Source: Bacteroidia bacterium
Lineage (GTDB): Bacteria; Bacteroidota; Bacteroidia; UKL13-3
Assembly (NCBI GenBank): GCA_021740845.1
Contig: JAIOYZ010000001.1
Coordinates: forward strand, 62,001-126,000
DNA: 64,000 bases
Reading direction: 5' to 3'
The first letter of the stretch is position 1; every line of letters begins with the position of its first letter. The notes below the pieces were generated by a model. It was not told the DNA's origin. It worked only from the letters and a program-made list of their open reading frames with translations, and made no database searches. Both the position numbers and the translations under genes were made by a program. This document shows, one piece after another, positions 22,389-29,419 of the stretch.

Positions 22389-22398
22389 GGTTCAAACC
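22389..22398. repeat. GGTTCAAACC palindrome site
   Basis: 16-mer TTTGGTTCAAACCGAA, 65 bases upstream of the epimerase start and 70 bases after the stop of the LCIB-like gene. With the copy at 25001 it brackets the channel/bestrophin/LCIB operon. Confidence 0.9.
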
Positions 22399-22467: not shown

Positions 22468-23214
22468 CTATTTGGTTATATAGCCAAGGTTATTTTTTCT
22501 TGTTTTTGTGCTTAGGTCTATTACATCAAAACGTCTTACTTGTGTAAAACTACCCATATCACTGTCGCTGTTTATGAGTATTGCTCCCACAAGAATAACA
22601 AACTTACAGTGGTAATTTGTTTTATCCACCAATTCATTTATACGATTATCAATGGCTTCGTACATTATTTCGGTTACTTCAAACAATGGGGTTTTAGCAT
22701 TGAGAACTCTTTCTTTTTCGGCATAAAGAATTTGTTCAATAGTGTTCATTTGATAGTCTAACTCGGTAATGTTGCCAGCGGTAATTTGGTTGCTTATTAA
22801 TTTGTCTAATGCTCCTTTTGCTGCCCCACAACAACTACTATTTTTGCTTTGCCCCATTCGATGAATTTCGCCAATTGTTCCATCCTTTGTAATACCAATA
22901 TGTGGTCCATAATAAATAAAAACTGCACCCTCATCTGGAACATGGCTGGCAAATGCTCCCATACCCGTAAGTCCTGTAAATGGAAAGCCATTTAACCCAC
23001 CCATTTTAAAAGGGCCTAAAAATTCTTGCGTTCTTATAGGATATTGAATACTATTTACATCATCACTACAAACACTGTCGGCAAGCATTACTAGATTGGG
23101 CTCTAAATCCAATTCATATTCAACAAAATCAATGATTTTGTTGACACTATCAATAGTTGTTATTGCTTTTGGATACCACTTATGAATGATGTTTAATTTT
23201 TCTCTTTTTTTCAT
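22468..23214 (-). CDS. LCIB/C-type carbonic anhydrase-like protein
   Basis: 248 residues. The sequence matches what I know of the limiting-CO2-inducible protein B/C family (LCIB_C_CA, PF18599): ADSVCSDDVNSIQYPIR (Cys49, Asp51/52, Arg61), then GGLNGFPFTGLTGMGAFASH and VPDEGAVFIYYGPHIGI (His91, His105), then SSCCGAAKGA (Cys128/Cys129). In characterised LCIB homologues a Cys-His-Cys zinc site carries carbonic anhydrase activity; the residues listed are the candidate ligands. The N-terminal 35 residues are helical and there is no signal peptide, so it is cytoplasmic. It is the last gene of a three-gene operon, 10 bases after the bestrophin gene. Assignment rests on motif memory, not on a search. 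Confidence 0.75.
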   Translation of the reverse strand: MKKREKLNIIHKWYPKAITTIDSVNKIIDFVEYELDLEPNLVMLADSVCSDDVNSIQYPIRTQEFLGPFKMGGLNGFPFTGLTGMGAFASHVPDEGAVFIYYGPHIGITKDGTIGEIHRMGQSKNSSCCGAAKGALDKLISNQITAGNITELDYQMNTIEQILYAEKERVLNAKTPLFEVTEIMYEAIDNRINELVDKTNYHCKFVILVGAILINSDSDMGSFTQVRRFDVIDLSTKTRKNNLGYITK

Positions 23215-23224
23215 TTTAATTTAC

Positions 23225-24232
23225 TTAAAGTATGATATTGTTTTTGGGTTGAAGCGCTGGTGGCAAATTAGTTTCACCAAGCATTTCTCTCATGTCAATT
23301 TCAATAGCTCTGCTCATTTGCGAAATAGGAACATCATTTGCCGAGCCTTCAAACGGATTTTCGGTGCTTTCGCCAACTTGTTCTAAAGAGGTATAAACCC
23401 AAGAAATTAATACACTAAATGGAATTACCAACCAAACCAAATTTCCTTTCATAAAACCATCTACACTTTCGTTGAGTTTATCAAATTCTTTGAGCATGCC
23501 AAAAGGTAAAAGCAAACAAAATAGTTTAATAAAAAAGGAGTTAATAGTTGCAAACTGACGAGGGTAGGGGAAGTTTTTAATGCGCTCGCTTTTTCCTTGT
23601 TGGTCGAATAAATCCTTTATTGCTTTTTGCATTTCCACAAACCTATAATCTTCAATTTCTTTGTTGTCGAATAATTGCTTGGTGGCTTTGCTTTGCAAGC
23701 TCAAAAGCTGTGCAGCTTTGTTTTTTGTAGTGAGAATGTATTTCAATTCATCATCTGAAAGATATTTTTTCAATTCATCTTCCAGTGGAGTTTCCATTTC
23801 GGGAATAGAATAATATGCCTTGTATTCTATATTATAGGATTTGTTAGAATTTTCCCATGCCTTTGTATCACGCATAGCATAGCGCAAAGCCGTTAGCCAA
23901 GCAAAATGACGATAAACCAATTCTTTAGATTTTTCGGGGTTGCTAATAAAATCTCTACTCATGGTTCCCCAAGTTCGACTACTATTTAAAATGGCACCCC
24001 AAATTTGTCTTGCTTCCCAGGTTCTATTGTAGGTTTGTGTGTTTTTAAAACCAACAATAAAGGCAGTGGCTGTTCCTAATAAAGCAACCACCGACCAAGG
24101 AATTGCTATCCATTTTAAGCCTGCTACTTGATAAAAAAGAACGGGAATAATGCCAATAAGTAAAAGTATGTAGATATTTCTTCTTGTCCAAGAAAGAAAT
24201 TCTGAGAATTTATAGGATCTACCTGAATGCAT
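23225..24232 (-). CDS. Bestrophin-family anion channel (UPF0187)
   Basis: 335 residues. The N-terminal half is diagnostic: FLSWTRRNIYILLLIGIIPV, IPWSVVALLGTATAFIVGFKNTQTYNRTWEARQIWGAILNSSRTWG, the bestrophin/UPF0187 signature with two N-terminal membrane helices, and a second membrane pair at about 235-280 (FFIKLFCLLLPFGML, LVWLVIPFSVLISWVYTSLE). Bestrophins form pentameric channels; bacterial members conduct cations or anions, and eukaryotic and algal ones pass Cl- and HCO3-. Its ATG overlaps the stop of the upstream channel gene by one base (TAATG), and the LCIB-like gene follows after 10 bases. Inner membrane. Ion selectivity is not deducible from sequence alone. Confidence 0.9.
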   Translation of the reverse strand: MHSGRSYKFSEFLSWTRRNIYILLLIGIIPVLFYQVAGLKWIAIPWSVVALLGTATAFIVGFKNTQTYNRTWEARQIWGAILNSSRTWGTMSRDFISNPEKSKELVYRHFAWLTALRYAMRDTKAWENSNKSYNIEYKAYYSIPEMETPLEDELKKYLSDDELKYILTTKNKAAQLLSLQSKATKQLFDNKEIEDYRFVEMQKAIKDLFDQQGKSERIKNFPYPRQFATINSFFIKLFCLLLPFGMLKEFDKLNESVDGFMKGNLVWLVIPFSVLISWVYTSLEQVGESTENPFEGSANDVPISQMSRAIEIDMREMLGETNLPPALQPKNNIIL

Positions 24233-24903
24233 TATTTTTCTGTTTTTGAAACGAATTTACTAATAAGAATGCCAACTAAAACAACGGAATAAAATTGCCC
24301 AGCAATACCAAAGAAGGAAGTTATTAATTTAGTGTAATGTGTGTTTGGGGTAATGTCGCCAAAGCCAATACTAGTAAGTGTAATTGAACTAAAATATACC
24401 AAATCCATATAGGTTGAGGCTGGACAAGATAAATCAATTCCTTTGAAGGATTGTGGATTTTGATAGACAAAAAATTGCAAAAGAAAAGTGCTTATTTCAA
24501 TGAGTAAAAAATAACCACAAGCCGAAGCTGAAATTATATCAGTATTTATATAGCTTGGTTTGATTAAATAATTTAGCACTTCCCATAAGATGAAAGAAAA
24601 GAAAACTACATAGCCAATATTTAGAAAAATAAAATAATAAGGATTGCTGCCCCAAAATGTTAAGCCAATAGGCAAGGCAAAAACAAGTAGAAAAAGCACT
24701 TTTTGAATTAGGTTTTTCCAATGACCTTTCTCAATAAAAACACCTACACTGGCTATTCCCAAAATAAGCATATTAATTGGCCAAATTACTTTGGTATAAA
24801 ATGGTAAATCACTTAAAAATATTCCAATAAAGAGGTGTTGAACCAAAGCTAATAGCAATAATTCATATTTTTCTTTGTGTATGAAGTTTAAAATTGTCTG
24901 CAT
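24232..24903 (-). CDS. Two-TM pore potassium-channel-like protein (Ion_trans_2)
   Basis: 223 residues with about six hydrophobic segments. The C-terminal pair encloses a pore loop with selectivity filter TSIGFGD (residues 177-183), the K+-channel signature, followed by the last membrane helix FFGIAGQFYSVVLVGILISKFV. There is no RCK/TrkA-N regulatory domain. The N-terminal four segments have few basic residues, so no voltage sensor is evident. First gene of the operon; TAATG coupling to the bestrophin gene suggests coordinated K+ and anion flux. Palindrome 25001 lies 98 bases upstream of its start. Confidence 0.87.
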   Translation of the reverse strand: MQTILNFIHKEKYELLLLALVQHLFIGIFLSDLPFYTKVIWPINMLILGIASVGVFIEKGHWKNLIQKVLFLLVFALPIGLTFWGSNPYYFIFLNIGYVVFFSFILWEVLNYLIKPSYINTDIISASACGYFLLIEISTFLLQFFVYQNPQSFKGIDLSCPASTYMDLVYFSSITLTSIGFGDITPNTHYTKLITSFFGIAGQFYSVVLVGILISKFVSKTEK

Positions 24904-25000: not shown

Positions 25001-25010
25001 GGTTTGAACC
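25001..25010. repeat. GGTTTGAACC palindrome site
   Basis: Sequence AATTGGTTTGAACCAAAATT, in the gap between the antitoxin gene end (25143) and the start of the K+-channel-like gene. Confidence 0.9.
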
Positions 25011-25142: not shown

Positions 25143-26231
25143 TTAATTTAACTTTTTATCTATTTTAGTTTTTATGCCGTAATGGTTCATTTCAAAACAT
25201 GCACGACCCAGAATTATCGCTGGATGAATTCGATGTTTATTTGAAAATTTGCTGATAATTTCATCGTTTAGCAGCGTATGGTTTTTTAAAAATTCATCCC
25301 AATAATTGGATGGTATTAAATTTTCTTGTGCATATTGGTTTGCTGCATTTTCAATTTCGTTTTCTTCAATTTTAGTTAAGTCAAGAAATTTAATTTCTTT
25401 GTTTTCTTTTAAGTGAAGAGCAATGTGGCCAATTTCGTGCAAAATGGTAAATGCCAAATTATCAATTCTATTGTGTCTTAGCGTTAATGCAATTGCAGGA
25501 TTGTTTTTCGACCAGAATGAATATCCATCAATTGGCGTTTTTTCTAATTTATCAATCATCAAAAATTTAATACCATATTGAGATAATTTCTTTTCAACTA
25601 GCTCTATGGTATTTTTGTTTTTATAAAAAATCTCTCTCAACTCATTGTTTAATTGAGGCAAGTTTTCAGAATGGAATGTGTTGGTTTTTTTTCTTTCTGC
25701 TTCATATTCCGCAAGAGATGTCCATGCAAATATGTTTTTGTTGTCTAGTTGAAGTTTTTCGCTTTTTTTGAAAAAGGCAAATTTTTTCTCTGAAAATTTA
25801 TTTACTAATCCATCAATAGATTTAACCGAATAAATTGACTGAATAATAGAAATATTGACAAAAAGATCATTTGTTAAATAGCCTTTTTTGCCGAAATATT
25901 TAATAGGAACATACTGACTAACTATTTTCCAAATCTCTATATTTTTAATCTTTGCTATATTTTTTTCCTTGATCTTCGCATTGTCAATTTCAAATTGTGA
26001 TTGAAATTTCATCCAGTAATCTGCTGAAATACCTAAAGATTTTTCTAATAGTATAGCAATGTCGGCTGTTACTGGTCTTTTTCCTTTTACGATTTCATTT
26101 AGGAATGAAGGTTTAACTCCCAAAAGAACAGCTAAGTCTTTTTGTGTTAAATCCTCGCGTAGCTCTAATTCATCTTTTATTAAAGTGCCTGGATGAGTAG
26201 TTTCAAATGGTATTAATGTTTTAGTTGCCAT
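25143..26231 (-). CDS. HigA-type antitoxin fused to ImmA/IrrE metallopeptidase
   Basis: 362 residues. Residues about 8-90 are a HigA/VapI-type XRE domain (HPGTLIKDELELREDLTQKD, LAVLLGVKPSFLNEIVKGKR, LEKSLGISADYWM). Residues about 200-340 are an ImmA/IrrE-type metalloprotease with HEIGH at 265-269 and a downstream NEIENAANQYAQENLIP helix bearing the third zinc ligand (Glu294). In ImmA systems such proteases cleave repressors; here protease and DNA-binding antitoxin are one chain. It lies 13 bases after the HigB-like toxin gene, so toxin comes first as in higBA. The protease may allow regulated antitoxin self-removal; that is inference. Confidence 0.87.
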   Translation of the reverse strand: MATKTLIPFETTHPGTLIKDELELREDLTQKDLAVLLGVKPSFLNEIVKGKRPVTADIAILLEKSLGISADYWMKFQSQFEIDNAKIKEKNIAKIKNIEIWKIVSQYVPIKYFGKKGYLTNDLFVNISIIQSIYSVKSIDGLVNKFSEKKFAFFKKSEKLQLDNKNIFAWTSLAEYEAERKKTNTFHSENLPQLNNELREIFYKNKNTIELVEKKLSQYGIKFLMIDKLEKTPIDGYSFWSKNNPAIALTLRHNRIDNLAFTILHEIGHIALHLKENKEIKFLDLTKIEENEIENAANQYAQENLIPSNYWDEFLKNHTLLNDEIISKFSNKHRIHPAIILGRACFEMNHYGIKTKIDKKLN

Positions 26232-26244
26232 AATGTTTGATTTT

Positions 26245-26565
26245 TTAAGAATAATGATTACTTAACTCTACAATTTCACAAATGGTGATAGTATAAGGTT
26301 CTTCACCCTCTATTGACGAAGAAAATTCAATGCGATATTTATCATTCACTCGTACAGATTCCAAACCTTGTTTATCACCACTTAGCTTTTCATAATTCAA
26401 ACTTTTAATTGGATATAAGTCCTCAATTTTATTAGCTACTCTTAATTTATCAATTGTGTTTTTATATCTCTTTATAATATCTTTTTGAAACCTATATTTT
26501 TTACTATTCGATTTTCCAAACGCATATAATTCTTCCAGATAGGCTTTTGTGAATTTTATTTCCAT
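26245..26565 (-). CDS. HigB/RelE-type toxin
   Basis: 106 residues, the usual size of plasmid-maintenance killer toxins (HigB family, RelE fold). Typical elements: a helical N-terminal half (RFQKDIIKRYKNTIDKLRVA), then LYPIKSLNYEKLSGDKQGLESVRVNDKYRIEFSS with the conserved Arg and RIEF strand, and an end strand ITICEIVELSNHY containing the conserved HY. These toxins cut mRNA on the ribosome. The following gene is the HigA-ImmA fusion antitoxin. No mobile element is adjacent. Confidence 0.86.
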   Translation of the reverse strand: MEIKFTKAYLEELYAFGKSNSKKYRFQKDIIKRYKNTIDKLRVANKIEDLYPIKSLNYEKLSGDKQGLESVRVNDKYRIEFSSSIEGEEPYTITICEIVELSNHYS

Positions 26566-29369: not shown

Positions 29370-29419
29370 TTTTGGTTCAAACCATATTGCTTTTAATATT
29401 GGTTTGAACCAAACGAAAT
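29370..29419. repeat. Paired-palindrome hairpin, 50-bp element copy 1
   Basis: GGTTCAAACC (29374-29383) and GGTTTGAACC (29401-29410) face each other; with TTT/AAA flanks and ATATT/AATAT inside they give a stem of about 18 bp with one bulged T and a GCTTTT loop. All 50 bases are identical to 30859-30908 and 34207-34256. It lies between the toxin gene start and the DUF4932 gene end. Confidence 0.92.

Follow-up and report, generated by a model that had tools for sequence, protein, structure and literature searches.

A bacterial gene set of a K+-channel-like protein, a bestrophin and an LCIB-type carbonic anhydrase as a possible CO2-driven acid-loading valve

What might a K+-channel-like protein (KCH), a bestrophin and an LCIB-type carbonic anhydrase do together in a bacterium? 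The question is raised by three minus-strand genes at 22468-24903 of the window, that is, the whole stretch of 64,000 nucleotides of Bacteroidia bacterium DNA that we analyzed (Table 1). Our recheck reproduced exactly the layout given in a preliminary description of this DNA, in which base 24232 is common to the KCH and bestrophin ORFs (TAATG, a one-base overlap) and 10 bases separate the bestrophin from the LCIB-type gene. The sequence motifs named there were found in the window translations, and the three gene identities were upheld by Pfam matches that all exceeded the curated cut-offs. On the same strand, the 5′ neighbors of the trio (25143-26565) are a HigA/IrrE-like gene (HTH_3 and Peptidase_M78) and a HigB-like toxin gene; the 3′ neighbor is an epimerase-like gene. 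We propose that the trio may form one functional unit, an acid-loading valve, powered by CO2 and by the membrane potential, that would help against alkaline or electrophile stress, and we give this whole explanation, functional unit included, a joint probability of about 0.5.

Table 1. Genes of the trio and residues discussed in the text, with window positions
Feature	Position	Strand	Remarks
K+-channel-like gene (KCH)	24232-24903	minus	223 aa; Ion_trans_2; homologues at 15 other loci
KCH selectivity filter TSIGFGD (residues 177-183)	24355-24375	minus	TxGxGD-type
Bestrophin gene	23225-24232	minus	335 aa; Bestrophin_2 (PF25539)
Bestrophin pore neck: Thr54, Phe58, Phe62	24047-24073	minus	aligned to KpBest I62, I66, F70
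LCIB-type beta-carbonic anhydrase gene	22468-23214	minus	248 aa; PF18599
Codons 49-51: Cys49 (predicted Zn ligand), Ser50, Asp51	23062-23070	minus	from alignment
His91 codon, counterpart of PtLCIB4 His88	22942-22944	minus	from alignment
His105 codon, predicted Zn ligand	22900-22902	minus	from alignment
Arg119 codon	22858-22860	minus	from alignment; 116/116 rows
Cys129 codon, predicted Zn ligand	22828-22830	minus	from alignment

The last gene of the trio had been read as LCIB-type from its motifs, and both a profile search and a predicted structure bore this out. The match to PF18599 (LCIB_C_CA) was strong (1e-76, 257.6 bits; curated cut-off 25), and the model of the enzyme (pLDDT 93.9) aligned with PtLCIB4 from the diatom Phaeodactylum (PDB 5b5y) with a Z score of 29.1, an rmsd of 2.4 and 29% identity (236 aligned residues), compared with Z scores of only about 10-12 for classical beta-carbonic anhydrases. 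PtLCIB4 and other LCIB-family structures were also matched by sequence alone. The window enzyme thus has the PtLCIB4 fold and keeps the counterparts of its Ser47 and His88; the position of Ser50, which matches Ser47, holds Ser in 105 of 116 aligned LCIB rows, and PDB 5b60 is PtLCIB4 with an Arg mutation at this position. The active-site set Cys-Asp-His-His-Arg-Cys is intact in 115 of the 116 rows, the window included. We take Cys49, His105 and Cys129 to be the zinc ligands, and Asp51, His91 and Arg119 are predicted active-site residues. These roles were transferred by alignment with PtLCIB4, from the known features of the LCIB family and from a review that names His162 and Arg194 of the algal protein (PMC5876011). 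A single homologue (L147, genome G643) departs from the full set of three predicted zinc ligands, with Gly, Asn and Ser in their place and Asp, His and Arg kept; it may be a natural pseudoenzyme. CO2 hydration is a putative activity of the window enzyme. According to one review, carbonic anhydrase activity was shown by none of three structurally characterized LCIB homologues (PMC5876011), which counts against the valve reading; another review describes PtLCIB3 and PtLCIB4 as apparently active in a constitutive way (PMC9614477).

Carriers of PF18599 are patchily distributed, with 3 of 64 genomes in the host family, 18 of 395 in the class and 35 of 395 in the phylum. The window enzyme was the seed for a scan of species genomes, and the shares of linkage given below accordingly apply to its own subfamily. 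The scan returned 101 relatives, and the 80 best were taken as named loci. A bestrophin ORF was present in the examined flank at 46 of these 80 loci (a remnant at L056 was left out), on the LCIB strand in all 46, and it immediately adjoined the LCIB gene at 41, upstream in 36 and downstream in 5. For the 36 upstream cases, the gap had a median of 12 bases and was at most 30 bases in 30 of them, a few lengths being overestimated as they were taken from the BLAST start. At L090 and L098 the bestrophin lay about 5 kb away, and at L126 it was in pieces. Among 40 regions from 51 other LCIB genomes, a bestrophin was found at 7, all of the window type and two of them duplicating named loci; in these 40 regions none stood beside other LCIB clades. 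A 582-aa open frame at L036/L128 was considered as a bestrophin-LCIB fusion and rejected, as it resolved into two overlapping ORFs in different frames.

Chance adjacency to LCIB should be rare, because the 37 genomes counted hold only 0-6 bestrophin matches each (the host has one other bestrophin). On the LCIB tree of 116 rows, the 51 bestrophin-linked rows, including four with remnants or distant neighbors only (L056, L126, L129 and L123), all fell in one clade of 88, and linkage required 15 changes, at least 6 of them forced. The bestrophin tree of 87 rows required 7 changes between linked and unlinked, of which starred branches force at least 5; several such changes imply that the pairing arose, or was maintained, with several lineages of bestrophin. 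We therefore consider it very improbable that the genes act separately and owe their linkage to shared transfer or chance only, given the common strand, the short gaps and the several bestrophin lineages involved, even though the patchy spread in the host family and the scatter of the nearest LCIB relatives over four named orders would suit such an explanation. Order labels on the LCIB tree needed 28 changes against a possible minimum of 7, which suggests transfer of the LCIB gene between orders, label changes being no proof and the labels of the Limnohabitans (L107) and Chthonomonas (L120) MAGs possibly reflecting binning errors. We found no LCIB match in the plasmid and phage collections that were searched. 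A point against a functional unit is that an adjacent bestrophin is missing at 36 of the 86 window-type LCIB loci.

Palindromes at 22389 and 25001, on either side of the trio, were considered as borders of a mobile cassette and discarded as genome-wide repeats. The palindrome TTYGGTTYRAACCRAA is dispersed (for example, at 22389-22398, 25001-25010 and 29374-29410), and its core GGTTYRAACC occurs 31 times in the window against 0.32 expected. Twenty-five of the 31 cores lie outside ORFs of at least 100 aa; such ORFs cover 80% of the window. The host genome (G000) holds 540 copies of the palindromic 16-mer and 0 of a reversed control, and 18 other genomes of the genus hold 3-187 copies against 0-2 for the control.

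In the valve reading, the bestrophin would pass anions. The window bestrophin matched Bestrophin_2 (1e-42, 147 bits; cut-off 27) and, by sequence, solved bestrophin chains down to 4e-24, with KpBest at E 5.8e-23. KpBest from Klebsiella (PDB 4wd8, so named in PMC9076864) belongs to the same family, but its neck is I-I-F and it is a Na+ channel, whose selectivity is shifted towards Cl- by I66F (PMC8496536), whereas the window neck is T-F-F. Necks were aligned for 48 linked bestrophins, among them that of the window, and for 39 unlinked ones hand-picked from 111 matches in the genomes of the same survey; the middle residue was Phe in 48 of 48 linked (T-F-F in 41, I-F-F in 7) versus 14 of 39 unlinked sequences, counts that ignore the kinship among the interrelated linked rows. 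The linked bestrophins thus carry a Cl--favoring neck residue, which is only suggestive of anion (HCO3-) conduction, because VCCN1 is an anion channel although its neck is Pro-Leu-Phe (PMC9076864) and because 14 unlinked bestrophins share the Phe neck. On the bestrophin tree these 14 group in one region with the linked ones, and no LCIB or K+ channel gene was found within the 1.4-4 kb around each. Two profiles, one of them built from the unlinked set, revealed no second bestrophin type beside LCIB.

The third component would supply the path for positive charge. KCH matched Ion_trans_2 (1.4e-11, 44.5 bits; cut-off 22.5), and residues T177, I179, G180, G182 and D183 of its filter are invariant in an alignment of 15 rows; its monomer model was too poor for a fold search (pLDDT 50.3). 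The recurrence that had been anticipated for the three-gene order was found: KCH, bestrophin and LCIB genes stand in the same order and on the same strand at 15 loci beyond the window (the bestrophin of L056 being a remnant only), which is more than chance would give, and the KCH loci span named Flavobacteriales, Chitinophagales, Cytophagales and Sphingobacteriales records, among others. A TMEM175 channel accompanies the pair at L120 and, beside KCH, at L123; a Na+/H+ exchanger does so at L115-L117 and L134. A comparison of 50 linked with 36 unlinked window-type loci counted same-strand genes at most 4 positions away; its query proteins were drawn from linked loci (a bias that favors the linked set), and its Fisher values ignore relatedness. 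A cation path, whether KCH, TMEM175 or a Na+/H+ exchanger, was found at 20 of the linked and 1 of the unlinked loci (Fisher 3e-5). For redox or AraC genes the counts were 13 and 1 (Fisher 0.006), at loci that are partly close relatives (L115-L117; L085, L099 and L118). A Pfam census free of this query bias gave, for 147 neighbors at linked loci, 8 short-chain dehydrogenases, 7 AraC-type proteins, 4 aldehyde dehydrogenases, 4 glyoxalases, 3 Na+/H+ exchangers and 2 TMEM175 proteins; these families are absent from the 25 listed for 110 neighbors at unlinked loci, which means at most one protein each. The genes beside the window trio itself, the epimerase-like gene and the HigA/HigB-like pair, are not detoxification genes, and this counts against the stress-valve reading.

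A channel for K+ and one for anions would together release salt, and the set could be an osmotic or voltage release valve. KCl or other salts would then flow through the bestrophin and the K+ channel, with the enzyme helping to regulate them or to buffer pH. In favor of this reading, the bestrophins of eukaryotes have been described mainly as Cl- channels (PMC8496536), and the cation partner differs between loci. A salt valve, however, needs no catalytic residues, yet the enzyme keeps them in all but one of the aligned rows, and we regard this explanation as unlikely; the presence of the enzyme at every locus follows from the seeding of the survey and is not evidence against it.

The preliminary description had offered a bicarbonate-handling or pH/anaplerosis system in which the K+-channel-like protein balances charge. 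In our view a bicarbonate-handling unit is likely, with a cation path enriched at the linked loci as counted above, and the anaplerotic or basal supply role is not supported. Each of the 37 LCIB genomes examined encodes a beta-carbonic anhydrase, and 4 of them a RuBisCO-family gene (open frames of 414-423 aa), leaving 33 without one; carbon concentration or a basal supply of HCO3- is therefore an unlikely purpose, and the patchy spread of the LCIB enzyme argues in the same direction. The host genome gave no match to a RuBisCO-family gene, so a RuBisCO-based CO2-concentrating mechanism lacks its enzyme there. Its one beta-carbonic anhydrase match, in a search that covered the beta family, is a 741-aa SulP-beta-carbonic anhydrase fusion (L211:629-2854, host genome C56).

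The same figures bear on bicarbonate uptake, in which the bestrophin would admit HCO3- and the enzyme would interconvert HCO3- and CO2 for carboxylases. LCIB enzymes can accompany uptake systems, as in a more distant LCIB clade of family f25. At 5 of its 16 loci an Sbt_1 gene (Na+-dependent bicarbonate-transporter type) stands no more than 3 genes away and a P-II-like gene no more than 4, calls for which one protein of each cluster was scanned. These Sbt_1 and P-II-like genes lie upstream on the opposite strand (L154, L159, L162, L165 and L166). HCO3- could also enter when external pH is high and the potential weak. Against uptake stand the beta-carbonic anhydrases already present in every LCIB genome tested, the fusion in the host, the rarity of RuBisCO-family matches and the unfavorable energetics of passive anion entry at -100 mV; we judge it rather improbable.

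Taken together, we suggest the following putative mechanism for the acid-loading valve. A cytosolic LCIB-type zinc carbonic anhydrase would convert CO2 to HCO3- and H+, and HCO3- would exit through an anion-selective bestrophin of the inner membrane. Positive charge would follow as counter-ion through the K+ channel, or through another cation path at other loci. The net outcome would be a loss of K+ and HCO3-, with the proton staying in the cytosol and acidifying it, and a small cytosolic acidification is reported to protect E. coli from electrophiles (PMC10224563). From the sequences and computations described here we infer HCO3- as the permeant ion, K+ as its counter-ion, the direction of flow and the triggering stress, and the joining of CO2 hydration, HCO3- and K+ exit and electrophile protection into one stress valve would be a further step of the same kind. 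As for the direction, an inside-negative potential means that a passive anion channel tends to export HCO3-. With CO2 equilibrated, the computed E(HCO3-) was above an assumed membrane potential of -100 mV in 4 of 4 pH cases. In the pH 7.8/9.0 case it was -71 mV, and at an assumed -60 mV the flow would be inward; the direction is thus not safe at external pH 9, where alkaline stress is proposed.

The Chlamydomonas LCIB/LCIC-BST1-3 system of the CO2-concentrating mechanism likewise has an LCIB-family protein working with bestrophins. LCIB/LCIC is reported to interact with BST1 and BST3 (PMC6708349), and in the algal model LCIB/C turns CO2 into HCO3-, which then passes through a bestrophin (PMC6708349, PMC13159521), so that its first two steps resemble those proposed here. 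The Chlamydomonas pair, however, resides in the chloroplast and serves RuBisCO, whereas the Bacteroidota set is operon-like, includes a K+ channel and occurs in genomes mostly without a RuBisCO-family gene. SulP-beta-carbonic anhydrase fusions, one of which is in this host, also bring a transporter together with a carbonic anhydrase; they differ in their transporter and carbonic anhydrase families and in being a single polypeptide. With the Kef K+ efflux systems the likeness is one of proposed logic alone, as K+ leaves, the cytosol acidifies and protection from electrophiles results (PMC10224563); Kef couples K+ efflux to proton influx, whereas the proton of the window trio would come from CO2 hydration, and we claim no homology. 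As a tentative extension, which we consider rather improbable, the set could do with the power of CO2 what Kef does, in response to alkaline or electrophile stress: a dedicated LCIB enzyme would make H+ and HCO3- from respiratory CO2, HCO3- and K+ would leave together and acidify the cytosol without an antiporter, and the modules would have been rebuilt with exchangeable cation parts (KCH, TMEM175 or a Na+/H+ exchanger).

A bacterial LCIB relative is not in itself new, since PMC5876011 credits Jin et al. 2016 with the description of an enzyme of this type from a cyanobacterium. No bacterial LCIB-bestrophin operon was found in the literature on LCIB or on bestrophin with carbonic anhydrase, as covered by titles and the beginnings of abstracts, without preprints and most subscription papers. 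What is known, then, is the algal interplay of LCIB and bestrophins, and what appears to be new here is an operon-like bacterial pair, often with a K+ channel. The linked loci also provide a natural collection of bacterial bestrophins with a Cl--favoring neck, together with a possible reason for it, whereas KpBest, the solved bacterial one, is a Na+ channel. Our analysis places the algal partnership of LCIB and bestrophins in bacteria that mostly lack RuBisCO-family genes, where cultured strains of Pedobacter or Flavobacterium make it open to experiment.
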